From contig CP112982.1 of assembly GCA_041875495.1 (NCBI GenBank), positions 124,001 through 188,000 on the forward strand: 64,000 nucleotides of DNA, read 5' to 3'. The translations under genes and the position numbers were made by a program. Under the pieces are notes generated by a model. That model was not told the origin of the DNA. It was given only the letters and a program-made list of their open reading frames with translations, and did no database searches. Positions 43,727 through 58,034 of the stretch are shown piece after piece. The stretch comes from Halomonas sp. CH40 (GTDB taxonomy: Bacteria; Pseudomonadota; Gammaproteobacteria; Pseudomonadales; Halomonadaceae). How positions within the stretch are numbered: position 1 is the first letter of the stretch; every line of letters begins with the position of its first letter.

Positions 43727-45286
43727 ATGACTGATAAATATAGAGAAAGCAGCACGGACAAGAAGCTTCGACAATGGTTCGTAAACGATATGAGCAGAGG
43801 CCTTCTCCGGCAAATTGATTTAAGAAAAGGGAACTTGAGAGGGCTTGCTCCTTTCAAAATGCAAATAGATTATCCGATCACTGCAATTGCGGGCAGGAAT
43901 GGAGCTGGAAAATCCACGATACTAGCTATTGCTTGTTGCGCTTATCACAACAAGAGGTCCGGATTTAAGCTTAAGGGACGCAGGAACTCCTATTACACGT
44001 TTTCTGATTTCTTTGTGCAACATACTGAGGAAGTCCCACCTCAAGGGATCGAAATTTTCTATCTGCTCGCCCATGACAACTGGAAAAAGTCTAAAACATT
44101 GCCAGATGGCAAGGGACTGGCGTATCAAAAGCGTTGGAAAAGAAAAGGTGGAAAATGGAATGACTACGCCACACGAATAAATTCCAATGTTGTGTTTCTT
44201 GGGATAGACAGAATTGTTCCCCATAGTGAACGCAGTCAATCCAAGTCATACTCCAAGTCTTTTATGGATTCTGATCCTAAAGGGTGGGAGGGAAAAGTCG
44301 CAGATATTGTTGGATATATCCTTGGGAAAAAATATTGCGAGCTTAGGTACCTGGAACATTCCAAGTATGGTCTACCCATCGTAAAATGCGGTGAAAATAA
44401 ATATTCTGGACTTAATATGGGAGCGGGAGAGAATGCTCTTTTCGAGATATTTCGTATTATATACTCCTGTGAGGATGGGGCATTACTAGTTGTCGATGAA
44501 ATTGAGTTGGGCTTGCATATAGACGCACAGAGAAAGTTGTTAAGGAAGCTTAAAGAGAGCTGTCTCGAGAGAAGAATTCAGGTGATTTGTACGACCCATT
44601 CGAAGGAGATATTCGATAGCCTTCCGCCAGATGCTAGGAAATTTGTTGAGTCTGTACAAAATAAAACCCTTATTACCGAAGGTATTGCACCAGAGTTCGC
44701 TATGGCAAAAATGGGTGCAAGCGAAATAAAAGAATTGGATGTAATGCTTGAAGATGGCGTTGCTGCCGAGATTTTTACGTTTGCGCTACCTACAAACCTC
44801 CGACAACGTGTTAATCCCATATCGGTAGGTTCAGCTGCAGCACTAAGTAGACAGCTAGCAGCGGCCTACGCACGAAAAGAACCCCGTCCGATTTTGGCAA
44901 TATTTGATGGTGATCAGCGCAAGCTAGAGAATGATAACGCTGAACATGCAAAGAAGATGGCGGAGTTAACTGACCCAGGTTTCGATGAATGGTTCAAAGG
45001 GCGCGTTGCCTACCTTCCAGGTGAAGCTTGGCCAGAAGCTTGGCTTCTCCAAGCAAACGTCGAGTTTATCACTAGCCTTGCTAATATGCTGGGCACGGAT
45101 GAAGACTGGCTCGCGGAGGTAATTGAGTACGGTCTACAGGCGGGCAAGCATGATGAGTTTCATGAACTTTCTAAACATTTAGGGTTGGAAAAACATCATT
45201 GTATTCAGTATTTAATGATGAATATTCGTAACTGTCAGCCTGAAGCTTTCAGTGAAATTGAATCCGCTGTTGAGCGTGCACTCTGA
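43727..45286 (+). CDS. OLD-like ATPase with Toprim domain, probable anti-phage protein
   Basis: A 519-residue protein. An ABC/SMC-type ATPase has Walker A GRNGAGKST (56-64), a signature-like LNMGAGENALFEI, Walker B LLVVDEIELGLH and the switch histidine in CTTHSKEI. The C-terminal part looks like a Toprim nuclease: MLEDGVAAEIF gives the first acidic residue (E342) and ILAIFDGD the DxD pair (D394, D396). This order is that of OLD-family nucleases, several of which act in phage defence. Codons are much more AT-rich than in neighbours, a sign of transfer. A single-gene system or a cassette, since no partner gene is adjacent. An attC-like site follows its stop. Confidence 0.85.
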   Translation: MTDKYRESSTDKKLRQWFVNDMSRGLLRQIDLRKGNLRGLAPFKMQIDYPITAIAGRNGAGKSTILAIACCAYHNKRSGFKLKGRRNSYYTFSDFFVQHTEEVPPQGIEIFYLLAHDNWKKSKTLPDGKGLAYQKRWKRKGGKWNDYATRINSNVVFLGIDRIVPHSERSQSKSYSKSFMDSDPKGWEGKVADIVGYILGKKYCELRYLEHSKYGLPIVKCGENKYSGLNMGAGENALFEIFRIIYSCEDGALLVVDEIELGLHIDAQRKLLRKLKESCLERRIQVICTTHSKEIFDSLPPDARKFVESVQNKTLITEGIAPEFAMAKMGASEIKELDVMLEDGVAAEIFTFALPTNLRQRVNPISVGSAAALSRQLAAAYARKEPRPILAIFDGDQRKLENDNAEHAKKMAELTDPGFDEWFKGRVAYLPGEAWPEAWLLQANVEFITSLANMLGTDEDWLAEVIEYGLQAGKHDEFHELSKHLGLEKHHCIQYLMMNIRNCQPEAFSEIESAVERAL

Positions 45287-45476: not shown

Positions 45477-46202
45477 TTACAGCTCGTTCAGGTAGCAGTG
45501 GTGTTGGGTGTTACAGCGTGAAACACGGTATTCAAGGGCTTCGCCTTGCAGGCCTCGGGCAATCCGGCGGACTTCAAGCAGCGGTGAGCCAATCTCTACG
45601 CCCAGGTGTTTCTGCTCCTGTTGGCCAGCGGCAACGGCTAGTAAGCGTTCCTCCGCCTTTGCAACACTCTGGCTGAATTTCTGCTGATACAGCTGATAAA
45701 GGGTGTTGGGCAATGTCTGTGGTTCATTTTCGAGCGCCGGGAAGCGCGCGGCATCCACCACCAGATCTTCCAGTAATGCCGGTACGTCGTCCAGCACCCT
45801 GATGCGTTGGATATGAACAACCACGGTGCCTTCCTCAAGTTCAAGCGCCTGGGCTTCTTCCGCCGTGGCCTGGCGGCATCTGCGCTGCAGCACCCGGGAA
45901 ACCGGAAGCGAGCGTGAGCCATCAAAGCGCACAAAATGGAAAAACTGAAACAGCGAACGATCACTGTCGTGGGTGGCAACGACGGTGCCTTTCCCCTGAT
46001 GACGAATAACCACGTGCTCGTTGGCCAGCGCATCAACGGCCTTGCGCAGCGTACCTACGCTGACACCGTATTCCTGTGAGAGGGCAGACTCGCTGGGGAT
46101 GTAAGTGCCCGGTGGCCAAATGCCCGAGACAATGCGTGATAGCAGGGCTTCCTTGATTTGCTGATACAGCGGGCGGTAGCTGGGTGTCGGCTGGTCGTTC
46201 AT
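45477..46202 (-). CDS. GntR-family regulator, HutC/UTRA subfamily, of the sulfonate cluster
   Basis: A 241-residue repressor. The winged helix domain (IKEALLSRIVSGIWPPGTYI, SALSQEYGVSVGTLRKAVDAL) is followed by a UTRA ligand domain (from about residue 90). It is divergent from suyA. The promoter between them carries a palindrome over the -10 element, and a near-identical site occurs before the TRAP operon at 50093. It therefore likely represses uptake and cleavage genes until a sulfonate ligand binds; this is inference. Confidence 0.9.
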   Translation of the reverse strand: MNDQPTPSYRPLYQQIKEALLSRIVSGIWPPGTYIPSESALSQEYGVSVGTLRKAVDALANEHVVIRHQGKGTVVATHDSDRSLFQFFHFVRFDGSRSLPVSRVLQRRCRQATAEEAQALELEEGTVVVHIQRIRVLDDVPALLEDLVVDAARFPALENEPQTLPNTLYQLYQQKFSQSVAKAEERLLAVAAGQQEQKHLGVEIGSPLLEVRRIARGLQGEALEYRVSRCNTQHHCYLNEL

Positions 46203-46316
46203 GTTCTGTTCCGTTCCTTGAAGTGTTGCTAAACAGGGCAGCCACTTCCATCAATGGTTTGCGCTCATAACGATCTTTGCATTAGAGCAATAATAACAAA
46301 AAAACATACAGAGGAC

Positions 46317-46350
46317 TTGCTATCATCTATCATATGTCATATATATGAGT
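46317..46350 (+). promoter_or_regulatory. suyA promoter with overlapping GntR-type operator
   Basis: TTGCTA (46317-46322) and TATATA (46340-46345) are separated by exactly 17 bases. TCATATATATGA (46337-46348) is a perfect palindrome covering the -10 element; with GT added it matches 50093-50106 in 13 of 14 positions. Confidence 0.6.
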
Positions 46351-46380
46351 TGTGGTTTCACAACGATGAGAGGAGACATC

Positions 46381-46665
46381 ATGAGTATCGACTTCGTAGT
46401 GCATGATGCCGACGACAGTGTCGGCGTCGCGGTGGTCGAGGGGATTCAGGCGGGTCAGGAACTGACAGGCTGGGTCATGCAAGGTGATCAGACAATTACG
46501 TGCACCGTCAGTGACCCTATCCCGATCGGGCACAAGCTGGCCGTTCGTGATCTGGCAGAAAGCGATGCGGTAATGAAGTACAGCGTCGATATCGGCCGCG
46601 CTATCAAGCCGATCAAGAAAGGCGAGCACCTGCACGTCCACAACGTTAAAACCAAGAGGTGGTAA
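46381..46665 (+). CDS. suyA: (2R)-sulfolactate sulfo-lyase, small subunit
   Basis: A 94-residue SAF-domain protein ([52 protein letters not shown]). This is the N-terminal domain of altronate/galactarate dehydratases. As a separate small gene followed by a 389-residue large subunit it matches SuyA rather than one-piece UxaA (about 495 residues). SuyAB splits 3-sulfolactate into pyruvate and sulfite. The ATG at 46381 follows GAGGAGAC. It ends two bases before suyB starts. Confidence 0.85.
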
Positions 46666-46667
46666 AG

Positions 46668-47837
46668 ATGGAAATCCAAGGTCGCAAATTTCTGGGTTAT
46701 CGTCGCAAGAACGGGCGTGTCGGTGTTCGCAATCACGTCATCGTGCTGCCGGTAGACGATATTTCCAACGCTGCCGCCGAAGCCGTTGCCAATAACATCA
46801 AGGGCACCATGGCGCTGCCGCATGCCTATGGCCGCCTGCAGTTTGGCCCGGATCTTGATCTGCACTTCCGTACCCTGATTGGTATTGGCAGCAACCCCAA
46901 TGTGGCGGCAGTGATCGTGATTGGCATTGAGCCGGGCTGGACCAACAAGGTGGTTGACGGCATCAAGGCAACCGGCAAGCCTGTTGAAGGCTTCTGGATC
47001 GAGCAGAATGGTGATCACAATACTATCTGTGCCGCGTCCAAAAAGGCGCGTGAGTTTGTTCAGTACGCCAGCGAGCAGCAGCGTGAAGAATGCGATATCA
47101 ACGAGCTGTGGGTCTCGACCAAGTGCGGTGAGTCTGACACGACCTCTGGTCTGGCCTCCTGCCCGACCACAGGTAACGCCTTCGATAAGCTCTATGATGC
47201 AGGCTGTACCCTGGTATTCGGCGAAACGTCCGAGCTGACTGGCGGTGAGCACCTGGTAGCAGAACGCTGCGCCACCCCTGAAGTGCGTGAGCAGTTCCAG
47301 GCGATGTTCGACAGCTACAGCGACATGATTGATCGCTACAAGACCAGCGATCTGTCCGAGTCACAGCCGACCAAGGGCAACATTGAAGGCGGCTTGACCA
47401 CTATCGAAGAAAAGGCGCTGGGTAATATCCAGAAGATCGGTAAGCGCTGTATGGTCGACGGGGTGCTGGATAAGGCCGAAACGCCTACCGGCTCGGGCCT
47501 GTGGTTCATGGATTCCTCTTCAGCGGCGGCCGAGATGGTCACCCTGTGTGCGGCAGCGGGTTATGTGGTGCATTTCTTCCCGACTGGCCAGGGCAACGTA
47601 ATCGGTAACCCGATTCTGCCGGTCATCAAGCTGTGTGCCAACCCGCGCACCCTGCGCACCATGAGCGAGCATATTGATGTGGATGTAACGCATCTGCTGC
47701 GCCGGGAAATGGATATGGATCAGGCCGGCGATACCCTGCTGGAAATGATGGTGCGTACTGCGAATGGTCGCCTGACAGCGGCTGAAGCGCTGGGCCATCG
47801 TGAGTTTGTCATGACGCGTCTTTACGAAAGCGCCTGA
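46668..47837 (+). CDS. suyB: (2R)-sulfolactate sulfo-lyase, large subunit
   Basis: A 389-residue catalytic subunit of the UxaA/GarD superfamily. [57 protein letters not shown] and [20 protein letters not shown] are the conserved landmarks; cysteines and histidine there bind the catalytic metal in the family. The ATG at 46668 has AAGAGG before it; a GTG at 46659 would overlap suyA. Sulfonate specificity is inferred from split architecture and from the hpsNOP and comC-like genes nearby. Confidence 0.87.
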
Positions 47838-47956
47838 GCTAAGCTGGCGCCTTGGCCGATGGCTGGGGTGTCAGCTGAGTAGGCTTCTGTTTTCAGATGT
47901 AATCCGCTGTTGGCTGATAGTGTGCATTTTGTTCTTGATAAAATGGAGCTGGCTAG

Positions 47957-48970
47957 ATGAGCGGTAGCATTGAACTTAATATAAGCCATGCGCGTGAGTT
48001 GGCAATGGCGGCCATGCATGGCCGCGGCTTTGGTGAGGCTGAAGCGGCGGCGACGGTCGAGGCCTTGCTGGGAGCAGAGCGTGATGGCTTGCCATCCCAT
48101 GGCCTTTCACGGCTGCCGTTCTATCTGGATCAGGCTGCCAGTGGCAAGGTGGATGCTTCCGCGGTTCCCCAGGTAGAAACTGACGGCGCCGTGGTGCGCG
48201 TAGACGCTCGGCATGGTCTGGCGTTTCCGGCGGTGGAGCGCGGCCTTGAGGCCGGCTATCAATGCGTGGCGCAAGCGGGTATAGCGGCGGTGTCCATTGC
48301 GCACTCTCATCATTTTGGGGTGGCCGGTGCGCCAGTGGAAGCCGCTGCTCGCCGTGGCTATCTGGCGCTGGCGTTCAGTAATGCGCCGTCTGCCATGGCG
48401 CCCTGGGGTGGCAAGCTGCCTCTGTTTGGCACTAACCCGATTGCCTTTGCCTGCCCGCGCCGTGACGGTGACCCGCTGCTGATTGATCTCTCTCTATCCA
48501 AGATCGCTCGCGGCAAGGTCATGCTGGCCAAGATCAAGGGCGAGCCAATCCCCGAAGGTTGGGCGCTGGATACCGAAGGGCGTGTTACCACCGACCCGGA
48601 TGCTGCCATTGCAGGCAGCATGGTGCCCGCTGGCGATGCCAAGGGAGCCGCGCTGGCGCTGATGGTGGAGTTACTGACAGCGGGCCTGACAGGCAGTAAT
48701 TTTGGCTTCCAGGCAAGCTCATTTTTTGAGGCTGAAGGCGAGCCGCCGGGGATTGCCCAGCTGATGTTACTGATTGACCCGCAGCGTTTTTCTCAAGGCT
48801 TTGTTGACCATGCCGAAAGCCTGTTTGCGGCAATGCTCGACCAGCCGGGTGTGCGGATTCCCGGTGAGCGGCGTTTTCAGTTGCGCCGTGAACAGGATGA
48901 CACGGTCACGCTGTCCACTGATCTGGTGGCGGCCCTTGAACAGCATGCTGCGTTTGCCGGGCAGAGCTAA
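47957..48970 (+). CDS. comC: (R)-sulfolactate dehydrogenase-like (malate/lactate dehydrogenase type 2 family)
   Basis: A 337-residue NAD(P)-dependent dehydrogenase of the MDH/LDH type 2 family. HGLSRLPFYLDQAASGKVD and the catalytic-histidine motif AHSHHFGVAG, plus LFGTNPIAFACPR, are conserved. In sulfolactate pathways ComC interconverts sulfopyruvate and (R)-sulfolactate, the substrate of SuyAB. Cluster position supports this role, but malate-like substrates cannot be excluded. Its usual partner for (S)-sulfolactate, slcC, is not in the window. It ends 12 bases from the convergent lacI-type gene. Confidence 0.78.
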   Translation: MSGSIELNISHARELAMAAMHGRGFGEAEAAATVEALLGAERDGLPSHGLSRLPFYLDQAASGKVDASAVPQVETDGAVVRVDARHGLAFPAVERGLEAGYQCVAQAGIAAVSIAHSHHFGVAGAPVEAAARRGYLALAFSNAPSAMAPWGGKLPLFGTNPIAFACPRRDGDPLLIDLSLSKIARGKVMLAKIKGEPIPEGWALDTEGRVTTDPDAAIAGSMVPAGDAKGAALALMVELLTAGLTGSNFGFQASSFFEAEGEPPGIAQLMLLIDPQRFSQGFVDHAESLFAAMLDQPGVRIPGERRFQLRREQDDTVTLSTDLVAALEQHAAFAGQS

Positions 48971-48982
48971 ACAGGGTTCAGG

Positions 48983-50011
48983 CTAGCCAGCAGGTGGCGC
49001 CGGGCCGGTAGATCCGCGCAGCACCAAGGGGGCATCAAGCAGTTGCTGGTGAGGCGGGGTTTCGCCATCAATACGGGCAATCAGTGCATCGGCAACGCCG
49101 TGCCCGATATCAATGGCGGGTACGGCCACCGTGGTGAGGGCGGGCGTCATGAAACGTGCCTGCGGCAGGTCATCAAAGCCGGTGACCGACAGCTGCTGGG
49201 GGACATTGATGCCGGCCGCCTGAGCCGCCAGCAGTACGCCAAACGCCAGGGTATCGTTGCCGCATAGTATGGCAGTTGGCCTGGGCTGCAGTTGCATCAG
49301 GGCATCAAAGGCCTGAAAGCCTTCAGCAATGCCATACTCGACGGTCATGACATGGCTGTCAGGAATCGGGCATCCGGCCTGTTCGGCGGCCTGAAGAAAG
49401 CCTTGCAGGCGTGCCCGGGCACGGTCATTGCTGGTGACGGGGGCGCTCAATACCGCTAGGCGGGAATGCCCAAGTGCCAGCAGATGTTCGGCCAGTGCCG
49501 TCGCGGGAGCCGTATTATCAAAGCCTATACATGGCCAGTCAGCGTCGTGAATGCCATGCCAGCAGGTCAGAAAAGGCATCTTGCGGCGTTTAAGCGTGGT
49601 CAGGACGGCAGGGCGATGGTCATGGCCGATCAGTACCATGCCATCGACGCCTTGTTGAATGAGAGTCCGCAGGGCATCGAATTCGTCATCCAGGTCATAG
49701 CGGTAGGTGGCAATCAGCAGACGACAATCATGGTGTTTAAGGCGCTGTTCGAGACTGTTGATGGCAATACTGAAAATCGGGTTATCCAGGGTGGGTACCA
49801 AAACGCCAATAGCCCCTATGCGTCGTGAGGCCAGGGCGCGCGCCGTGCCATGGGGAACATAGCCCAGCTTTGCGATGGCAGCCTCGACCCGTGCCTGGAG
49901 TGGCTTGCTGACATGCGGTGCCCGGTTAAGCACCCGTGATACGGAGGCTGTGGAAACGCCTGCTTCACGTGCTACATCTGCCAGTAAAGCATTTTGTAGT
50001 TTGTTGTTCAT
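48983..50011 (-). CDS. LacI-family regulator of the sulfonate cluster
   Basis: A 342-residue repressor with an N-terminal helix-turn-helix and hinge (LLADVAREAGVSTASVSRVLNR, ARALASRRIGAIGVLVP) and a sugar-binding-like effector domain ending near CGNDTLAFGVLLAAQAAGI and SVTGFDDLPQARFMTPALTT. LacI proteins bind palindromes centred on CG. Exactly such a palindrome (TGTAAGCGCTTACA) occurs before the TRAP genes (50127) and before hpsN (53650). It is divergent from the TRAP operon. The effector may be DHPS or sulfolactate. Confidence 0.92.
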   Translation of the reverse strand: MNNKLQNALLADVAREAGVSTASVSRVLNRAPHVSKPLQARVEAAIAKLGYVPHGTARALASRRIGAIGVLVPTLDNPIFSIAINSLEQRLKHHDCRLLIATYRYDLDDEFDALRTLIQQGVDGMVLIGHDHRPAVLTTLKRRKMPFLTCWHGIHDADWPCIGFDNTAPATALAEHLLALGHSRLAVLSAPVTSNDRARARLQGFLQAAEQAGCPIPDSHVMTVEYGIAEGFQAFDALMQLQPRPTAILCGNDTLAFGVLLAAQAAGINVPQQLSVTGFDDLPQARFMTPALTTVAVPAIDIGHGVADALIARIDGETPPHQQLLDAPLVLRGSTGPAPPAG

Positions 50012-50092
50012 AAAGCATTTTTTCCTTTGCTGCGGCTTTTCTGGGATGCTTTACCTTATAGTAAGAATAGGTGAAAATTTTTTCTGGACAAT

Positions 50093-50106
50093 TCATCTAT
50101 ATGAGT
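50093..50106. promoter_or_regulatory. candidate GntR operator before the TRAP operon
   Basis: TCATCTATATGAGT differs in one base from the site over the suyA promoter (46337-46350). It sits between a possible -35 (TGGACA, 50085) and -10 (TAACTT, 50108). Confidence 0.5.
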
Positions 50107-50126
50107 CTAACTTGAAGATACAGCTT

Positions 50127-50140
50127 TGTAAGCGCTTACA
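50127..50140. promoter_or_regulatory. LacI-type operator before the TRAP operon
   Basis: TGTAAGCGCTTACA is a perfect 14-base palindrome with a central CG, the classic LacI/GalR pattern. The same 14 bases occur at 53650-53663. Confidence 0.75.
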
Positions 50141-50259
50141 TAACAATTTGTACTGGATGTGGTGCAAAGATGCTAGTTGCAAAGGTGACCGACAAGGCTG
50201 GATAAGAAAATCTGACAGGCAAAAGATAATTACAAGAACAAGCGTTGAGGAGTCAATGT

Positions 50260-50487
50260 ATGTCTGATCCATCTCAAGAACCTTCTGGTAATAAGGGGTT
50301 AGGGGTACTCATGTGGGTAGCCTTTGGTCTCTTTGTCGTCTTTTTTCTGAATGTTGCCCTCCAGCGTTTCAGTCCCGGCCTGGTGGAGCTTTCCGCCGCC
50401 CAGGAAGCGATGTTGCTCGTGGCGGCCACCGGTGTCTTTATCTCTGCCTGTTTGAAACTGGAAGCCCGACATTCCCATAACGCATGA
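50260..50487 (+). CDS. small membrane protein in the sulfonate TRAP operon
   Basis: A 75-residue protein with two hydrophobic segments (LGVLMWVAFGLFVVFFLNVA and AMLLVAATGVFISACL). The ATG at 50260 lies after GAGGAG. It opens the TRAP operon, 59 bases before the receptor. I do not recognise the family. It is not a DctQ subunit, since a full DctQ gene follows. It may be an accessory membrane subunit of this transporter. Confidence 0.7.
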   Translation: MSDPSQEPSGNKGLGVLMWVAFGLFVVFFLNVALQRFSPGLVELSAAQEAMLLVAATGVFISACLKLEARHSHNA

Positions 50488-50546
50488 CGTGGCCTGTTAA
50501 AGGCTTAACAATAAGTACCTTAACAACAAGTACAAGGAGCACGCTG

Positions 50547-51731
50547 ATGTCTCTGTTCAACCGTTTCGATATGTCCAAGCCCGGTGTTTCTGGTGAGCCC
50601 AGCCTGCCAGAGCGCCGTCAGTTCATGTTGGCGGCGGGGCGCTATGGTTTTAGCGCCGCCGTGGTCGCTGCCGTGGGTGGGACGCTGTTCTCAGAACAGG
50701 CCCTGGCGCAAACCGCCCAAGAGGAAAGTGAGCTGCAGGCCGCTGCTGAAATGACCATAGTCATGGCAACTGGTTACCGGGTAGGCGCGACCCGTGCGTA
50801 CCCGATCATGCAGCTGAACTACAAGGAAAACCTGCAGAACTTTACCGGCGGCCGGGTCTATGTGCGGCTGGCACCTGCTGGCGAGCTGGGCGTAGGTGGT
50901 GCCCTGATCAGCAAGGTTCAGAACGGCTCAGTAGCGATTGCCCAGCACTCCATGGCCAACCTGGCGGCCTTTGCCCCGGAAGTGGATCTGGTCAATATTC
51001 CTTACTGGTGTGGCAATAACCAGCACCTGATTAATCTGGTGACATCGTCTGCCTGGCAGAATGTGGTGCATAACAAGATTGAGGAGCGTGGTTTCAAAGT
51101 ACTCAACTATATATGTATCGACCCGCGTACCGTGGCGGTTCGCGAGGGGCTACTGGATGGCCCTGCGAGAACGCCGGAAGATATTGAAGGTATCAAGTTC
51201 CGGGTTCCCAGCTCGCAGATTCTGCAGAAGGTTTACCGCCTGCTAGGGGCAAACCCGACACCAGTGGCATGGGGCGAAACCTCATCTGCCATGCAGCAGG
51301 GCGTGGCAGATGCACTCGATCCGAGTGTTCAGGCACTGCTGGTCTTCGGCTTTACGGATGTCCTGAAGAGTATCTCCACTATCCAGTCCGTCGCTGATGC
51401 CCAGGTATATACCTGCAACAAGGAATGGTTCGACTCCCTCTCAGCGCCTATTCAGGATGGCGTGATGCAGGCGGCTGAAACCACCTTCCGTGAAAACCTG
51501 GCCAAGGTGCCTGCAGCTCGGGCATACGCTTACAACCAGATGCGTCAGGCGGGTGTCGAGGTATATAACCCGACAGACGACGAAATTGCACAGTGGCGTG
51601 ACCGCTGTGGCCACCACCTGCCGGATTGGGACGAGACCAAGCTGGAACTGGCGGGGTCAATGGACGTCTTTGAGCAACTACTGGCGGCTACGGAGGAAAG
51701 CAATGGCTACTACGTCGACAGCAACAGCTAA
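50547..51731 (+). CDS. TRAP substrate-binding protein, sulfonate cluster, Tat-type signal
   Basis: A 394-residue DctP-family receptor. The long N-region has ERRQFMLAAGRYGFSAAVVA, a twin-arginine signal, with cleavage probable after EQALAQ. The binding fold includes IEGIKFRVPSSQILQKVYRL with the family arginine. The ATG at 50547 follows AAGGAG at good distance. By cluster context it binds DHPS or sulfolactate (the hpsKLM-type transporter). Its end overlaps the small permease start by 29 bases. Confidence 0.9.
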   Translation: MSLFNRFDMSKPGVSGEPSLPERRQFMLAAGRYGFSAAVVAAVGGTLFSEQALAQTAQEESELQAAAEMTIVMATGYRVGATRAYPIMQLNYKENLQNFTGGRVYVRLAPAGELGVGGALISKVQNGSVAIAQHSMANLAAFAPEVDLVNIPYWCGNNQHLINLVTSSAWQNVVHNKIEERGFKVLNYICIDPRTVAVREGLLDGPARTPEDIEGIKFRVPSSQILQKVYRLLGANPTPVAWGETSSAMQQGVADALDPSVQALLVFGFTDVLKSISTIQSVADAQVYTCNKEWFDSLSAPIQDGVMQAAETTFRENLAKVPAARAYAYNQMRQAGVEVYNPTDDEIAQWRDRCGHHLPDWDETKLELAGSMDVFEQLLAATEESNGYYVDSNS

Positions 51732-52266
51732 GATGTCCAAGTGGCGGGCTTTCCGGTTGCGTTGCGACAAGATCGACCGTAGCGCGGAGCGCTGGCTGCT
51801 ATTGACCTTTTATGCGCTCATTATCCTGACGATTGCCATTGAAGTCTTCCGGCGCTTTGTCATGAACTACTCCTCGTCCTGGGGCGAGGAGGTTGCCCGC
51901 TACGCCTTTATCTATCTGGCCTGGCTGGCGGCGGCGGCCGCCGTCAGGGATCGAGCGCATATCCGTATTGATGTGCTGGTCAATCTGGGTGGCCCCAAGA
52001 TGAAGCGCCTGGCCTGGTGGCTGGCAGATATTGCCACTCTGGTGCTGGCGGTCTGGGCGTTGTGGCTATCGATTGGTCCTATTCTTACCTCGATCAACTT
52101 TGGCTCAATCACACCGGGTTTACGCGTATCGCAGGCTTTCTTCCTGGCAGCAGTCCCCCTTGGCTTTACGCTAGTGGTGTTACGGGTGGTGCAGTCCATG
52201 CTGGCGGATGTTCGCCGCATGCGTCGCGGTGACCCCGTTTTTGATGGCCAGAAGCTGTTCGACTGA
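51703..52266 (+). CDS. TRAP small permease (DctQ type), sulfonate cluster
   Basis: A 187-residue four-helix membrane protein (EVFRRFVMNYSSSWGEEVAR is the DctQ motif). The ATG at 51703 is preferred to one at 51733 because GGAGGAAAG lies six bases upstream; it overlaps the receptor gene by 29 bases. It is followed 11 bases later by the large permease. Confidence 0.9.
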   Translation: MATTSTATAKMSKWRAFRLRCDKIDRSAERWLLLTFYALIILTIAIEVFRRFVMNYSSSWGEEVARYAFIYLAWLAAAAAVRDRAHIRIDVLVNLGGPKMKRLAWWLADIATLVLAVWALWLSIGPILTSINFGSITPGLRVSQAFFLAAVPLGFTLVVLRVVQSMLADVRRMRRGDPVFDGQKLFD

Positions 52267-52277
52267 GGGAATTCGTT

Positions 52278-53585
52278 ATGGAATTTATGACCTACCAACC
52301 CGCGGCAGCAGACCTAGGATGGAGCTTTTTTCTGCCCATGCTGGGGCTGGCCGTCATGATTGTGCTGGGTGTACCCATCTGGGTGGCGATTGGGCTGGGG
52401 ACATTGGCGGCAATGACGTTTACTGAAGCCTTGCCTTTGTCCGTATTTGGCGCGTCGCTTTTTGAAGGCATCAACGCCTTTGCACTGATTGCCGTACCAC
52501 TCTTTATTCTGACCGGGGATGCCCTGGTGCGCTCGGGTCTTTCGGATAAACTCTTGAACCTGGCGCAAGCCACTGTCGGCAGCTTTCGCAGTGGCTTGGG
52601 CAGCTCCACCACCCTGGGGTGTGGTTTCTTCGCGTGTATTTCCGGCTCTGATGCGGCCGGTGCAGCGGCTGTTGGGCGGATGACCATTCCCCGCCTGGTG
52701 GAAAGAGGCTATCCGCTGCCCGCTGCCTGTGCGCTGGTGGCAGCAGGTGCCTGTACGGGTATTCTGATTCCGCCTTCGATTGCCTATATCGTGATTGGGC
52801 TAGTGCTGGGTATGCCGGTTTCCACGTTATTTCTGGCCGCTATCATCCCCGGTATTCTGGTCATGCTGGCGATCATGCTGACTAACATGGTGCTCAACCG
52901 CATGCACGGCTTTGAAAAGGGCCATGAGCGTTTTTCGCTGCGTAATTGGCTAAATGCGGTCTGGGATGCGCGATGGGCGCTGTTTGTTCCCGTGGTGATT
53001 CTGGGCGGCATCTATTCAGGTATCTTCACGCCTACGGAAGCGGCATCCGTGGCCGTTGTGGTCGTTGTGTTGGTCGGTTTCAAGCAGGGCACCCTAAGGC
53101 TGAGCGATATTCCACGCATGCTGGAATCTTCGGCGCGGGTATGTGGGGTGATTGTTCCCATTATTGCGATTGCGCACCCGCTGGCCCAGATGCTTGCCAG
53201 CCTGTCTATTCCACAGACCATGGTAGGCAGCATCACCGGTATTACTGACTCTCCCGTGCTGATTATCCTGATGATGATTGGTGTGCTGGTATTGGCCGGC
53301 TGTGTGATGGAAGCCACCCCGAATATTGTCATTCTGGCGCCGCTTTTATTGCCCCTGGCGCAAACGGTCGGCATGGATCAGTTCCATTTTGCGATCCTGA
53401 TGATTACCACTCTGGGGCTTGGGTTTATAACACCGCCGTTAGGGCTGAACCTGTTCGTGGTGGCGGGGTTAACGCGATGTTCCGTGCTGGCCATCGCACG
53501 CTATGCGATTCCCTTTGTGCTGGCCATGCTCTCGGTCGCGCTGCTGGTGGCCTTTGTGCCCTGGCTGTCGCTGTGGTGGCGTTAA
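52278..53585 (+). CDS. TRAP large permease (DctM type), sulfonate cluster
   Basis: A 435-residue membrane protein with about twelve helices. FALIAVPLFILTGDALVRSG, GSDAAGAAAVGRMTIPRLVE and GFITPPLGLNLFVVAGLT are typical of DctM. It completes the transporter that should import the organosulfonate with sodium. Confidence 0.93.
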   Translation: MEFMTYQPAAADLGWSFFLPMLGLAVMIVLGVPIWVAIGLGTLAAMTFTEALPLSVFGASLFEGINAFALIAVPLFILTGDALVRSGLSDKLLNLAQATVGSFRSGLGSSTTLGCGFFACISGSDAAGAAAVGRMTIPRLVERGYPLPAACALVAAGACTGILIPPSIAYIVIGLVLGMPVSTLFLAAIIPGILVMLAIMLTNMVLNRMHGFEKGHERFSLRNWLNAVWDARWALFVPVVILGGIYSGIFTPTEAASVAVVVVVLVGFKQGTLRLSDIPRMLESSARVCGVIVPIIAIAHPLAQMLASLSIPQTMVGSITGITDSPVLIILMMIGVLVLAGCVMEATPNIVILAPLLLPLAQTVGMDQFHFAILMITTLGLGFITPPLGLNLFVVAGLTRCSVLAIARYAIPFVLAMLSVALLVAFVPWLSLWWR

Positions 53586-53648
53586 TATCCCTGATTTTTT
53601 CTGAATGAAGTGACTGAAAAAACGGCCGTAACTTGGCGCGAACATAAA

Positions 53649-53664
53649 TTGTAAGCGCTTACAA
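53649..53664. promoter_or_regulatory. LacI-type operator before hpsN
   Basis: TTGTAAGCGCTTACAA is a perfect 16-base palindrome whose inner 14 bases equal the site at 50127-50140. It lies 100 bases before the hpsN start. Confidence 0.78.
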
Positions 53665-53730
53665 AAACGCTGAGTGGTTAACCCTGAACGTGCCTTCGAG
53701 TCGCAGGCAGCACTCCTGGCACCTTGATGA

Positions 53731-55077
<1,347 letters not shown>

Positions 55078-55078
55078 T

Positions 55079-55840
55079 ATGCAGCCGGACTTCAGTCTCA
55101 AGGGTCAGGTAGCGTTGGTGACCGGCGGCAGCAGCGGGCTGGGTCGCGCCATGGCCGAAGCACTGGCAGCAGCAGGTGCCCAAGTGGTGGTGGCAGCTCG
55201 GCGGCGACAGGCGCTTGATGAGAGTGTAACGGCCATTGAAGCACAGGGCGGCCAGGCGGCCGCCCTTGTGGCCGATCTTGCAGCACCCGAGTCTGTTGAT
55301 GATATTGCCCACCGGGCGGCAGCGCCTTTTGGCGATATCACCATTCTGGTCAATGCGGCGGGTGTCAATTTGCGCCAGCCAGCGGAAGAGGTTGACCTGG
55401 CTTCCTGGCAGTTGACGTTACAACTGCATCTGGGCACGCCGTTTTTCCTGTCGCGTGCCCTGGTGCCCGGTATGCGCAAGAAAGGCTATGGGCGGATTAT
55501 CAATCTGGCCTCTTTGCAGTCGCAGCGGGCCTTCCCTAATAGCGCCCCTTACGGAGCAGGCAAGGGCGGGATCGTACAGCTGACCCGAGCCATGGCGGAA
55601 GCGTGGTCTCAGCATGGCATTAATGCCAATGCCATTGCACCGGGCTTTTTTCCAACCGAGCTGACGGCGCCGCTGTTTAACGACCCAACCGCCGCAGGGA
55701 ACCTGGCGGAGCGCACCGCGATAGGGCGCAATGGCCAAATGGCCGATATTGCGGGGCCGACCGTCTTCCTCGCGTCTCCGGCTGCTGGCTACGTTACCGG
55801 ACAGACGCTCTATGTCGACGGTGGTTTCACTGCCAAATAA
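55079..55840 (+). CDS. hpsO: short-chain dehydrogenase, probable DHPS 2-dehydrogenase (HpsO)
   Basis: A 253-residue SDR enzyme. The cofactor motif VTGGSSGLGRAMAEAL, NAAGVN and the catalytic YGAGKGG (Y-x3-K) are intact. In DHPS degraders HpsO and HpsP together oxidise and re-reduce carbon 2, turning (S)-DHPS into the (R)-form used by HpsN. Assigned by its place directly after hpsN and before a second dehydrogenase. Confidence 0.8.
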   Translation: MQPDFSLKGQVALVTGGSSGLGRAMAEALAAAGAQVVVAARRRQALDESVTAIEAQGGQAAALVADLAAPESVDDIAHRAAAPFGDITILVNAAGVNLRQPAEEVDLASWQLTLQLHLGTPFFLSRALVPGMRKKGYGRIINLASLQSQRAFPNSAPYGAGKGGIVQLTRAMAEAWSQHGINANAIAPGFFPTELTAPLFNDPTAAGNLAERTAIGRNGQMADIAGPTVFLASPAAGYVTGQTLYVDGGFTAK

Positions 55841-55865
55841 TCTCACCTAGTGAGGAGATCGTATC

Positions 55866-56858
55866 ATGCGAGCATTGTATTACGTTGGCCCGGAGCAGGT
55901 TGAAATGCGTGAGGCAGAGGAGCTGCCATTGGCGGAGGGCGAATCCCGGGTGCGCATTCAGGCGACGGGAATCTGTGGCTCTGATCTGCATGCCTTTCAT
56001 GGCCATGATCCGCGCCGCAAACCGCCCTTGATTCTGGGGCATGAGGCAGCGGGTGAAGTGATAGAAGGACCGCTGCTGGGTAAGCGGGTTACCATGAATC
56101 CGCTGATTATCTGCGGGCATTGTGATTACTGCATGGAAGGTCGTCAGAACCTGTGCGCCAATCGCACCATGATTGGTATGACCCGCCCCGGCAGCTTTGC
56201 CGAAACGCTGACCATTCCCAGTCATTGCCTGATTGAGCTGCCTGATTCCCTGTCTGCTGAAGCAGCAGCGCTTACCGAGCCTGCCGCGACGGCCTTGCAC
56301 GGTGTCAATCGTCTTGCCGCCTGCCTGCCAAGGCCGCTTTCTGAAGGGCGGGTGCTGGTAATTGGTGGTGGCGCGATTGGCTTGCTGACCGCGCTGATTC
56401 TGCGCCACAAGGGGGTGCGTCATCTACAGGTTGCTGAAACCAACCTGCCCAGGCGAAACACTGCAGAAAAAGCCGGATTGACTGCGTTTGATCCGCGCAG
56501 TGAGGCGCCAGAGGCCGATGCCTTTGACGCAGTTTTTGATTGCGTTGGTTCAGCACCGACACGCCAAATGGCGGTGCACTGTATACGGCCTGGGGGGGCG
56601 ATCATGCACCTTGGCTTACAGGATAACGAAGGAAGCCTGGATACTCGCGCGATTACGCTCAAGGAAGTTGCTTTCCTGGGCGCGTATACCTACACATCCG
56701 CCGATTTGAGGGCCACCGTTGACCTGTTGGATTCTCAGGCGCTGGGCGAGCTTTCCTGGGTAGAAGTACGCCATCTGGAAGACGGTGATAGCGCCTTTGC
56801 TGACCTAGTGGCAGGACGTACACCAGCGGCCAAGGTGATACTCAAGCCTCACGGTTGA
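55866..56858 (+). CDS. hpsP: zinc-type alcohol dehydrogenase, probable DHPS 2-dehydrogenase (HpsP)
   Basis: A 330-residue medium-chain dehydrogenase. GICGSDLHAFHGHDP and ILGHEAAGEV form the catalytic zinc site; CGHCDYCMEGRQNLCANR holds four cysteines for structural zinc; VLVIGGGAIGLLTAL binds NAD. GTGAGGAG lies before the ATG. It is the expected second enzyme of DHPS epimer conversion. Confidence 0.8.
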   Translation: MRALYYVGPEQVEMREAEELPLAEGESRVRIQATGICGSDLHAFHGHDPRRKPPLILGHEAAGEVIEGPLLGKRVTMNPLIICGHCDYCMEGRQNLCANRTMIGMTRPGSFAETLTIPSHCLIELPDSLSAEAAALTEPAATALHGVNRLAACLPRPLSEGRVLVIGGGAIGLLTALILRHKGVRHLQVAETNLPRRNTAEKAGLTAFDPRSEAPEADAFDAVFDCVGSAPTRQMAVHCIRPGGAIMHLGLQDNEGSLDTRAITLKEVAFLGAYTYTSADLRATVDLLDSQALGELSWVEVRHLEDGDSAFADLVAGRTPAAKVILKPHG

Positions 56859-56978
56859 ACCAGTAACGTGTGAGGTATCACGGATAACCACCCTCTGATG
56901 CAGCACTGACCGTCAGGTTGCAAGCCAACCGCGCATCAGGCACATGCATCCGCATGAAAAGATAAGGAGAGCTGGCAG

Positions 56979-58034
56979 ATGAAGCCACCTATATTGACCA
57001 CACCCAAGGAGGGTTGGTTGGCACGACTGATTCAGCGAACAGGCAATTACCGCAATATTGGCCGGGGCCTTCTGGTGTGCGTCACCATTGCACTGGCGAC
57101 CACTTTTATTGCGGACCATTACGGCGGCCCGACGCTTCTTTATGCGCTGCTGTTTGGTATGTCGCTGCATTTTTTGAGTGAGGAGGGGGCATGCCGAGAG
57201 GGCGTTGAATTTGCCGCGCGTACCGTGCTGCGCCTGGGTGTTGCTTTGTTAGGGGCGCGGATGACGTTCGAGCAGGTGGGGGAGCTGGGGATCGGACCCG
57301 TGTTGACGGTGATTGTTTCGGTGGCCTTTGTGATTCTGGCTGGCGCTGTGATGGCAAGGATGCTGGGACTTTCGCGTGACCTTGGGCTGCTAACCGGCGG
57401 TGCGGTGGGTATCTGCGGTGCCTCGGCGGCGCTGGCACTTTCGGCGGTGATGCCGCGCGACGAGAACAGTGAGCGCAATACCATTCTTACTGTGGTGGGG
57501 GTCACCACGCTATCAACGGTGGCGATGGTGATTTACCCCTTGATTGCCGGTGTGCTGTCATTGGCCAATGCCCAGGCAGGCATCTTTCTGGGCGGTACCA
57601 TTCACGATGTTGCCCAGGTTGTGGGCGCCGGTTACATGATTTCCGAGGAAACAGGCGATACCTCAACGCTCGTCAAACTGGTGCGGGTGGCCATGCTGGT
57701 ACCGGCGGTCATGGTGTTTATGTGGTTGTTTCGCGCATCACGCCATGCACAGAGCGGGGCGACTAAAGTGCCCATGCTGCCCAGTTTCCTGGTCGGCTTT
57801 GTGGTGCTGGTGGTGATCAACAGCCTGGGGCTGATTCCCGAGGCGGTCAACGAGGGCATGTCGACGCTGTCCCGCTGGTGTCTGGTGACGGCGATTGCCG
57901 CCCTGGGTATCAAGACCTCGTTCCAGAAGCTTGCCGTGGTGGGGTGGAAACCGGTGATCCTGATGGTGCTGGAAACCCTGCTTTTACTGGCCATTGTATT
58001 GGGTGTGGTGGTGTTTGCAGGATTGGGCACCTAA
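56979..58034 (+). CDS. suyZ: YeiH/SuyZ-type putative sulfate or sulfite exporter
   Basis: A 351-residue membrane protein of the UPF0324/YeiH family with about nine to ten helices (GVALLGARMTFEQVGELGIG, GGAVGICGASAALALSAVMP, GIFLGGTIHDVAQVVGAGYM). Homologues next to taurine and sulfolactate genes (TauZ, SuyZ) are thought to export the released sulfur oxyanion. Here the place after hpsP fits that. Function of the family is still mainly inferred from context. AAGGAGAGC precedes the ATG. Confidence 0.82.
   Translation: MKPPILTTPKEGWLARLIQRTGNYRNIGRGLLVCVTIALATTFIADHYGGPTLLYALLFGMSLHFLSEEGACREGVEFAARTVLRLGVALLGARMTFEQVGELGIGPVLTVIVSVAFVILAGAVMARMLGLSRDLGLLTGGAVGICGASAALALSAVMPRDENSERNTILTVVGVTTLSTVAMVIYPLIAGVLSLANAQAGIFLGGTIHDVAQVVGAGYMISEETGDTSTLVKLVRVAMLVPAVMVFMWLFRASRHAQSGATKVPMLPSFLVGFVVLVVINSLGLIPEAVNEGMSTLSRWCLVTAIAALGIKTSFQKLAVVGWKPVILMVLETLLLLAIVLGVVVFAGLGT

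Follow-up and report, generated by a model that had tools for sequence, protein, structure and literature searches.

The 13 genes at positions 45477-58034 of the window, the 64,000-nucleotide stretch of Halomonas sp. CH40 DNA analysed here, very probably form a cluster that imports and degrades 2,3-dihydroxypropanesulfonate (DHPS). DHPS is an abundant sulfonate from algae and sulfoquinovose-degrading bacteria. What the DNA shows is which genes are present, their homology and key residues, and candidate operators together with how well these are conserved. The order is gntR, suyA, suyB, comC, lacI, a small gene, hpsK, hpsL, hpsM, hpsN, hpsO, hpsP and yeiH, with gntR and lacI on the reverse strand and all others on the forward strand. 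Every gene named in a preliminary description of this DNA is in place by ORF coordinates and Pfam domains. The DHPS pathway is already known; the set found here looks complete but trimmed, and has a clearly readable candidate control switch.

In the proposed scheme, DHPS would be taken up by the TRAP transporter HpsKLM. HpsN would oxidize (R)-DHPS to (R)-sulfolactate in two NAD+ steps, and SuyAB would then cleave (R)-sulfolactate to pyruvate and sulfite, the latter possibly exported by the YeiH-type protein. The (S)-enantiomer of DHPS would enter the pathway via HpsO and HpsP. LacI (HpsR), acting at two identical operators, would probably control two units, small-hpsKLM and hpsNOP(-yeiH), and suyAB(-comC) may be under GntR control. 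We infer the substrates, the direction, the regulator-operator pairing and sulfite export. DHPS degradation, also proposed in the preliminary description, agrees with the solved structures nearest by sequence to HpsN, HpsO, HpsP and the binding protein, which are DHPS proteins. SuyB occurs in 9/9 family genomes with an HpsN of at least 85% identity versus 8/142 others (Fisher p about 3e-10), in a sample of 151 genomes that come from one family and are hence not independent. A promoter and terminator scan returned fewer sites than shuffled sequences did.

HpsN (53764-55077, forward strand), the predicted (R)-DHPS 3-dehydrogenase, is 62% identical to HpsN of C. pinatubonensis. GRY(A/S)H is the HpsN-defining motif and includes the sulfonate-binding His126 (PMC11382572); the window protein carries GRYAH, with a histidine at the position aligned with His126. 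The catalytic residues are kept, and residues matching H126, E318, H319, D352, K353 and H359 of the Cupriavidus enzyme are present (roles from PMC11382572). The position of CpHpsN Ser226 is a threonine, which counts against the main reading. Among solved structures, CpHpsN (E 2e-183) and RpHpsN (2e-156) come closest in sequence, and HisD structures score 9e-75 or worse. Grouping of this HisD-like protein with true HisD, which by the preliminary description would speak against DHPS degradation, did not occur. In the tree it falls with characterized HpsN, in a group of 35 rows that includes the Cupriavidus and Ruegeria proteins and is split from HisD by a 100/100 branch. On the HisD side are the E. 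coli protein, one from the PDB and the one encoded by this genome; the program warned of long HisD branches, and the fork that holds only HpsN has 91/87 support.

SuyA and SuyB are the putative small and large subunits of (R)-sulfolactate sulfo-lyase. SuyA (46381-46665, forward) is a separate SAF-domain protein with 58% identity to the suyA neighbour in C. pinatubonensis. SuyB (46668-47837, forward; start checked, the ORF list having GTG 46659) contains GD_AH domains and is 78% identical to C. pinatubonensis SuyB. Among the plasmid matches listed, identity to SuyB falls from 64% to 41%. The following gene (47957-48970, forward) encodes a ComC-like Ldh_2 protein, probably an (R)-sulfolactate dehydrogenase, whose homologues adjoin slcC in relatives. 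Its best NCBIfam family is the sulfolactate dehydrogenase NF040650, at 180 bits versus a cut-off of 500. Among structures, a ureidoglycolate/piperideine-carboxylate reductase matches it better (1e-58) than sulfolactate dehydrogenase does (3e-36), a point against the main reading. The ComC name is backed by context, not by sequence score.

HpsO (55079-55840, forward) is a short-chain dehydrogenase (SDR) and a predicted (R)-DHPS dehydrogenase. Its best PDB match is 8wwf, RpHpsO, but only narrowly: 284 bits versus 279 and 273 for two other SDRs, a near tie that counts against the assignment. The SDR triad and the characteristic glutamine are present as S145, Y158, K162 and Q147; the role of Gln147 and the key residues of HpsO and HpsP are described in PMC11131964. 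HpsP (55866-56858, forward), the predicted (S)-DHPS dehydrogenase, is a zinc MDR protein. It best matches 8wwd (E 1e-80, next 4e-34), a zinc alcohol dehydrogenase structure that is presumably DsHpsP. Of the HpsP residues His59, Glu60 and Glu139, the first two occur at identical numbers and the third aligns with E138 of the window protein.

The TRAP transporter comprises the predicted DHPS-binding protein HpsK (DctP; 50547-51731) and the permeases HpsL (DctQ; 51733-52266, PF04290, start checked) and HpsM (DctM; 52278-53585, PF06808), all on the forward strand. By sequence, HpsK is closest to 24gc (E 2e-123, next 7e-21), which its depositors named "DHPS TRAP transporter"; the permeases are assigned by Pfam. 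Between lacI and hpsK lies a gene for a 75-aa protein with two hydrophobic segments (50260-50487, forward), absent from the earlier gene list. It has no Pfam or NCBIfam match, and a homologue is found in 15/19 relatives. The same slot holds small hydrophobic proteins in Rhodovulum sulfidophilum (L027), on the Rhodobacteraceae bacterium SC52 plasmid (L123) and in P. seriniphilus (L124).

The last gene, yeiH (56979-58034, forward), encodes a PF03601 (YeiH/SuyZ-type) transporter that is a probable sulfite exporter. The PF03601 domain is matched beside sulfo-lyase genes, but the protein reaches 164 bits versus an NCBIfam YeiH cut-off of 233, which counts against the main reading. A PF03601 gene likewise follows hpsP in relatives L003, L004, L006 and G149/L107. 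A Pfam profile search of the genome gave no match to the sulfite oxidation families PF03404 and PF04976. PF00384 has five matches in the genome; three were scanned against NCBIfam, a 1312-aa protein and a second 984-aa protein being left out, and the best model for each was formate dehydrogenase alpha, one over the cut-off. The genome may therefore encode a different kind of sulfite dehydrogenase.

The cluster encodes two regulators. The LacI-type protein (48983-50011, reverse; LacI and periplasmic-binding domains by Pfam), probably HpsR, is encoded divergently from the hps genes, and the gap contains the perfect palindrome TGTAAGCGCTTACA before hpsK (50127-50140, forward). A second, identical copy lies in the hpsM-hpsN gap (53650-53663, forward). 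Two exact copies are present in 18/18 covered family relatives, and the palindrome recurs with at most one mismatch in 5/5 alpha- and betaproteobacterial hps loci read. TGTAAGCGCTTACA is a probable HpsR operator, and its invariance makes it a simple, testable regulatory prediction. A LacI-type hpsR is also present in C. pinatubonensis (L026), Rhodovulum, SC52 and P. seriniphilus.

The GntR/UTRA regulator (45477-46202, reverse; Pfam GntR and UTRA), which is SuyR-like, is divergent from suyA, and its homologue adjoins suyAB or slc genes in relatives. The gntR-suyA gap contains a candidate operator, CAACTCATATATATGA, before suyA (46337-46352, reverse, 0 mismatches), for which 0.03 matches are expected by chance at up to two mismatches. 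Its core occurs in 10/10 gntR gaps examined and 4/4 further suyA upstream regions, and an exact copy precedes suyA in C. pinatubonensis. As a 16-mer, it is weak or absent in ten other plasmid suyAB loci. A tentative, weaker copy with 2 mismatches lies upstream of hpsK (50089-50104, forward) and is kept in some relatives only. GntR action at the hpsK promoter was considered and not adopted on these grounds.

Automatic labels would instead make the operon a histidinol dehydrogenase, an altronate/galactarate dehydratase and a malate dehydrogenase for sugar acids. The GD_AH and Ldh_2 domains fit those labels, and HpsN scores 433 bits against the TIGR00069 hisD cut-off of 244 (NCBIfam). The mislabelling as histidinol dehydrogenase that had been predicted is borne out: 30/32 plasmid homologues of at least 55% identity, and 37/40 overall, carry a hisD annotation among the matches listed. 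DHPS degraders are often masked by this label. A true HisD, however, is encoded separately in the genome (G000:C1:2224054-2225265), HpsN has the HpsN motif and tree position, and the binding protein matches a DHPS transporter. SuyB, so close to its Cupriavidus counterpart, is at most 41% identical to the plasmid matches listed below the 64% step. The sugar-acid reading is barely credible, and a sugar-acid or histidine function was rejected on the separate HisD, GRYAH, the tree and the SuyB identity step.

External sulfolactate, which the preliminary description had also offered as a substrate, is not supported. On this reading, sulfolactate from outside would be no less a target of the cluster than DHPS, and ComC would pair with a protein encoded elsewhere to make up a sulfolactate racemase like that of Chromohalobacter. 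In its favour, comC has stayed intact and constrained (dN 0.11, dS 1.4 versus V. andesensis), GntR-suyAB-comC resembles a sulfolactate unit, and 15/19 related loci carry slcC. Nonetheless, the genome has no SlcC ortholog (five matches at 32-38%, none over the survey threshold), so a complete SlcC/ComC racemase was rejected, and no slc-type TTT transporter was found there, its only TctA being 35% identical to slc TctA. With both absent, (S)-sulfolactate from outside is unlikely to be used, and this rival as a whole is improbable; (R)-sulfolactate alone may serve as a substrate, given some importer.

A further rival concerns (S)-DHPS. In the model of Liu et al. 2024, HpsO and HpsP do not racemize DHPS; each turns its own enantiomer, (R) or (S), into sulfolactaldehyde by oxidation at C3. 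The S-branch would here end at (S)-sulfolactate, and only (R)-DHPS would be fully used. This model is favoured by enzyme work with proteins from Ruegeria, Dinoroseobacter and Cupriavidus (PMC11131964) and by the missing SlcC. Against it, HpsP is intact and constrained (87% to V. andesensis; dN 0.09, dS near saturation) although the S-branch would then be unfinishable, and the Cupriavidus stretch read likewise lacks slcC. Against the main DHPS reading, no dedicated sulfolactaldehyde dehydrogenase was recognized, the three GabD-like proteins tested matching succinate-semialdehyde dehydrogenases best. C3 oxidation is a serious contender, if somewhat short of an even chance. Because SlcC is missing, such strains offer a natural test of two published (S)-DHPS models, racemization at DHPS versus direct oxidation to (S)-sulfolactaldehyde.

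Intact SlcC is missing in 4/9 hpsN genomes versus 0/8 others, which is not significant (p 0.08). V. andesensis DSM 19434 carries slcC beside its hps genes, and neither slcC nor comC was found in H. cerina CECT 7282. Tentatively, and with some doubt, the SlcC-less clusters (the window, H. cerina and G149, with a decayed copy in S. tamaricis) may be DHPS-only specialists. HpsO and HpsP would settle chirality at the DHPS level and make sulfolactate epimerization unneeded, ComC would be either a remnant or a side outlet towards sulfopyruvate, and one LacI operator code would run the whole set from alpha- to gammaproteobacteria. If so, this shared code could find DHPS degraders from DNA alone.

Among the nearest known systems is that of Ruegeria pomeroyi DSS-3, hpsR-hpsKLM-hpsNOP (SPO0590-0596), with hpsR adjoining hpsK (PMC4334477). 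The order lacI, TRAP K-L-M, N, O, P is shared by the window, R. pomeroyi and Rhodovulum; suyAB is not in the Rhodovulum stretch read. PMC10130141 uses an R. pomeroyi hpsKLM mutant as the positive control for a growth defect on DHPS. PMC11382572 assigns R. pomeroyi to the CuyA route, whereas the window has SuyAB next door and an operator before hpsN too.

In the suy/slc sulfolactate clusters of Chromohalobacter salexigens and Paracoccus (PMC12421959, citing Denger and Cook 2010), an SlcC/ComC racemase accompanies SuyAB; SuyAB, a ComC-like protein and a GntR-type regulator are common to the window, whose genome lacks a recognizable counterpart of their SlcC and TTT transporter. C. pinatubonensis has hpsRNOUP-suyAB (PMC11382572). 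Strain HN-2 shares LacI, HpsN, HpsO, HpsP, SuyA and SuyB with the window, and similar motifs before hpsN and suyA, but uses the MFS carrier HpsU in place of TRAP, and the 25 kb read from it lacks homologues of ComC, GntR and PF03601, all three of which the window has. The SC52 plasmid has lacI-small-TRAP-hpsNOP-suyAB-Ldh-PF03601, gene types that the window has too, in one continuous block where, unlike in the window, a GntR homologue was not found; nor was slcC in the 19 kb read. P. seriniphilus has a similar hps block with suyAB. To these systems the halophile adds a clean gammaproteobacterial DHPS case, with true HisD separate in the genome.

The predicted cluster for degradation of 2,3-dihydroxypropanesulfonate (DHPS) lies at 45477-58034 of the window (bases 124001-188000 of a single-contig genome of 3.67 Mb), and every ORF that the preliminary description had named in it was found where it had been placed. 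Pfam assigns, in order, GntR with UTRA, SAF (SuyA), GD_AH (SuyB), Ldh_2, LacI, DctP, DctQ, DctM, Histidinol_dh, a short-chain dehydrogenase, a zinc dehydrogenase, and PF03601. Between lacI and the TRAP genes, 50260-50487 encodes a protein of 75 aa that has two hydrophobic segments. It has positional counterparts in alphaproteobacterial hps clusters, with no link between them by tblastn, and is possibly a TRAP accessory protein. A gap of 178 bp precedes hpsN, and the spacing suggests the units suyA-suyB(-comC), small-hpsK-L-M, and hpsN-O-P(-yeiH). Just upstream, a GC-poor stretch (43727-45286) encodes an AAA-type ATPase that weakly matches the retron effector ATPase PtuA and is a possible defense gene.

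The Histidinol_dh protein exceeds the NCBIfam HisD cut-off (433 vs. 244 bits), bearing out the prediction that it would be mislabelled as histidinol dehydrogenase. The label is widespread: of the best 40 of 251 plasmid-collection records (46-62% identity; the lower ones may not be HpsN), 37 are named hisD, 1 hpsN, and 2 are unannotated, and at 55% or more, 30 of 32 among the matches listed are hisD. By sequence, Cupriavidus HpsN (E 2e-183) is the closest solved structure, followed by Ruegeria HpsN (2e-156), versus 9e-75 for the best HisD, and the nearest named HpsN is from Vreelandella andesensis (96%). The protein carries GRYAH, a motif of HpsN only according to the available text of PMC11382572, and retains the equivalents of His126, Glu318, His319, Asp352, Lys353, and His359 of the Cupriavidus strain HN-2 protein, with Thr in place of Ser226. 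The genome encodes a second, true HisD elsewhere.

The grouping of the HisD-like protein with HpsN also held in a tree of 51 proteins, where a 100/100 branch splits the HpsN group (35 rows) from three HisD rows. The group consists of 33 rows picked by the pattern GRY(A/S)H, plus Ruegeria HpsN and the window protein, both of which also carry the motif. The tree excludes loci whose genomes were already represented, as well as fragments with fewer than 380 aligned residues (L024, L025). Support is 91/87 at the fork holding the HpsN rows and locus L052 alone, and the program flagged the HisD rows for long branches. L052 falls within the HpsN clade yet does not match GRY(A/S)H.

A second HpsN-like group (L009:13146-20859; L042-L052; L128, L129, L130) is at 53-58% to the window protein within the family. 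Every family row except L052 has GRYAH, and L128-L130 have GRY(A/S)H. In L042-L052, the gene adjoins a DegT aminotransferase (11/11) and a CuyA-like PLP enzyme (6/11) within 1.5-kb flanks, where no HpsO or HpsP homologues were found. L128-L130, on three alphaproteobacterial plasmids, additionally encode an amino-acid racemase together with an exporter of PF03601 or TauE type. As a guess, this group would oxidize an amino-alcohol sulfonate, e.g., cysteinolic acid, to cysteate, followed by sulfite release; among the publications listed since 2019 that name cysteinolic acid, no title concerned such a pathway. A third HisD-like family group (L053-L062, 46-49%) is without GRYAH; PGG(K/A/V)(Y/F)P occurs there in 7/10 rows, the other three being outside the script's pattern. 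In the tree, it joins neither HisD nor the HpsN fork.

The best structure match of HpsO is RpHpsO (8wwf), with two other SDRs nearly tied, and Ser145, Gln147, Tyr158, and Lys162 are at identical numbers. HpsP best matches 8wwd (1e-80; runner-up 4e-34), which was deposited as a zinc-containing alcohol dehydrogenase and is taken for DsHpsP because the entry number and residues fit the accessible text of PMC11131964. The TRAP binding protein best matches 24gc, deposited as a DHPS TRAP transporter (2e-123; runner-up 7e-21). SuyB is at 78% to Cupriavidus SuyB; among 43 matching plasmid records, 13 fall at 60-80% and the other 30 under 60%, with a step from 64% to 41% among the matches listed. The Ldh_2 protein scores far under the NCBIfam sulfolactate dehydrogenase cut-off and is named ComC-like only because homologues adjoin SlcC in relatives.

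Sulfite is likely exported by the PF03601 protein or assimilated. No protein with PF03404 or PF04976 was found in the genome. Of five molybdopterin enzymes, three were scanned; formate dehydrogenase alpha was the best model of each, one being above cut-off. Two 984-aa reading frames (G000:C1:254644-255963 and 3421666-3422985) have equal scores, the first above the formate dehydrogenase alpha cut-off, and are perhaps a duplication.

Named genomes, when scanned, yielded 23 loci, of which 19 are at 81-96%. The slcC gene was found in 15 of the 19: in 11, slcC-comC lies past lacI, on the side of the window's suyAB-comC, and in four (L011-L014), TTT-slcC-comC lies past hpsP. It is split in two pieces in L019, and slcC and comC appear decayed in L014 (Salinicola tamaricis). 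Of the four loci without slcC, three (L010, L017, L020) end early at contig ends, and the fourth is Halomonas cerina (L006), with the order gntR-suyAB-lacI-small-hpsKLMNOP-yeiH. Across 151 family genomes, HpsN (at least 85%) occurs in 9, SuyB in 17, SlcC in 14, and ComC in 18, among them a 42% match and a copy interrupted by an inner stop. SuyB is present in all nine genomes with HpsN; four of them yielded no intact SlcC (the window's genome, H. cerina, G149, and S. tamaricis, where it is decayed). SlcC is present in 8/8 SuyB genomes without HpsN at 85% or more, a contrast without statistical significance (p 0.08). Within the genus, HpsN at 85% or more and SuyB are each confined to one of the 25 genomes sampled, the window's own, and the trait is therefore patchy.

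SlcC-like matches in the window's genome are at 32-38%, and its single TctA is at 35% to the slc TctA; judged by these identities, both the slc-type uptake route and the step by which SlcC acts on (S)-sulfolactate appear absent. This bears on two models of how (S)-DHPS is used. Mayer et al. 2010 proposed for C. pinatubonensis that HpsO and HpsP interconvert the DHPS enantiomers (as reported in PMC11382572 and PMC11131964). By contrast, Liu et al. 2024 (PMC11131964) found C3 oxidation to sulfolactaldehyde, of (R)-DHPS by HpsO and (S)-DHPS by HpsP; SuyAB is there termed R-sulfolactate sulfolyase. Under the latter model, (S)-DHPS ends up as (S)-sulfolactate, which should be unusable by SuyAB if SlcC is absent. 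A strain that combines HpsP and SuyAB but lacks SlcC is therefore a natural test.

The perfect palindrome TGTAAGCGCTTACA occurs twice, in the lacI/hpsK gap (50127) and in the hpsM/hpsN gap (53650); these are the only sites in the window at up to two mismatches (0.12 expected). Both are also the only genomic sites at up to one mismatch; a reversed control pattern likewise has two, so the count alone proves nothing, but the two palindrome sites are both exact and both fall within this cluster. All 18 Halomonadaceae loci (L003-L019, L021) have two exact copies, one per gap in 17; L010, which has no TRAP genes there, has both in its lacI-hpsN gap. The Azoarcus locus, starting within dctM, has a copy 5' of hpsN. 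Flanking bases are highly variable; the 14 themselves are invariant. Outside the family, a site with at most one mismatch lies by lacI in 5/5 hps loci examined (Cupriavidus, Rhodovulum, Rhodobacteraceae SC52, Paracoccus seriniphilus, and P. versutus), and P. versutus has a second such site 5' of an ABC transporter. No site at that threshold was found in seven plasmid loci with suyAB but no hps (L118-L122, L126, L127). Over 725,060 bases in all, there are 48 sites, every one in an hps cluster, versus none for the reversed pattern. The plasmid loci covered came from 11 of the 13 records in which SuyB exceeds 60%. Such palindromes are common among LacI-family operators, so assignment to the cluster's LacI rests on place, by which TGTAAGCGCTTACA is its candidate operator.

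A second motif, CAACTCATRTATATGA, lies 5' of suyA. Its core is present in 10/10 gntR gaps and 4/4 further suyA upstream regions examined, and the motif is exact 5' of suyA in Cupriavidus. The other ten suyAB loci on plasmids either lack the 16-mer or have it with at least two mismatches, and the exact 12-base core is in P. versutus only. A title-level literature search, with subscription papers largely outside it, found no published report of TGTAAGCGCTTACA or CAACTCATRTATATGA operators.

On sequence evidence, the prediction of a cluster for DHPS degradation is well supported; it belongs to the known hps-suy kind, in a trimmed arrangement. The pathway itself is ordinary, and the cluster's usefulness lies in its candidate operator and in serving as a test case.
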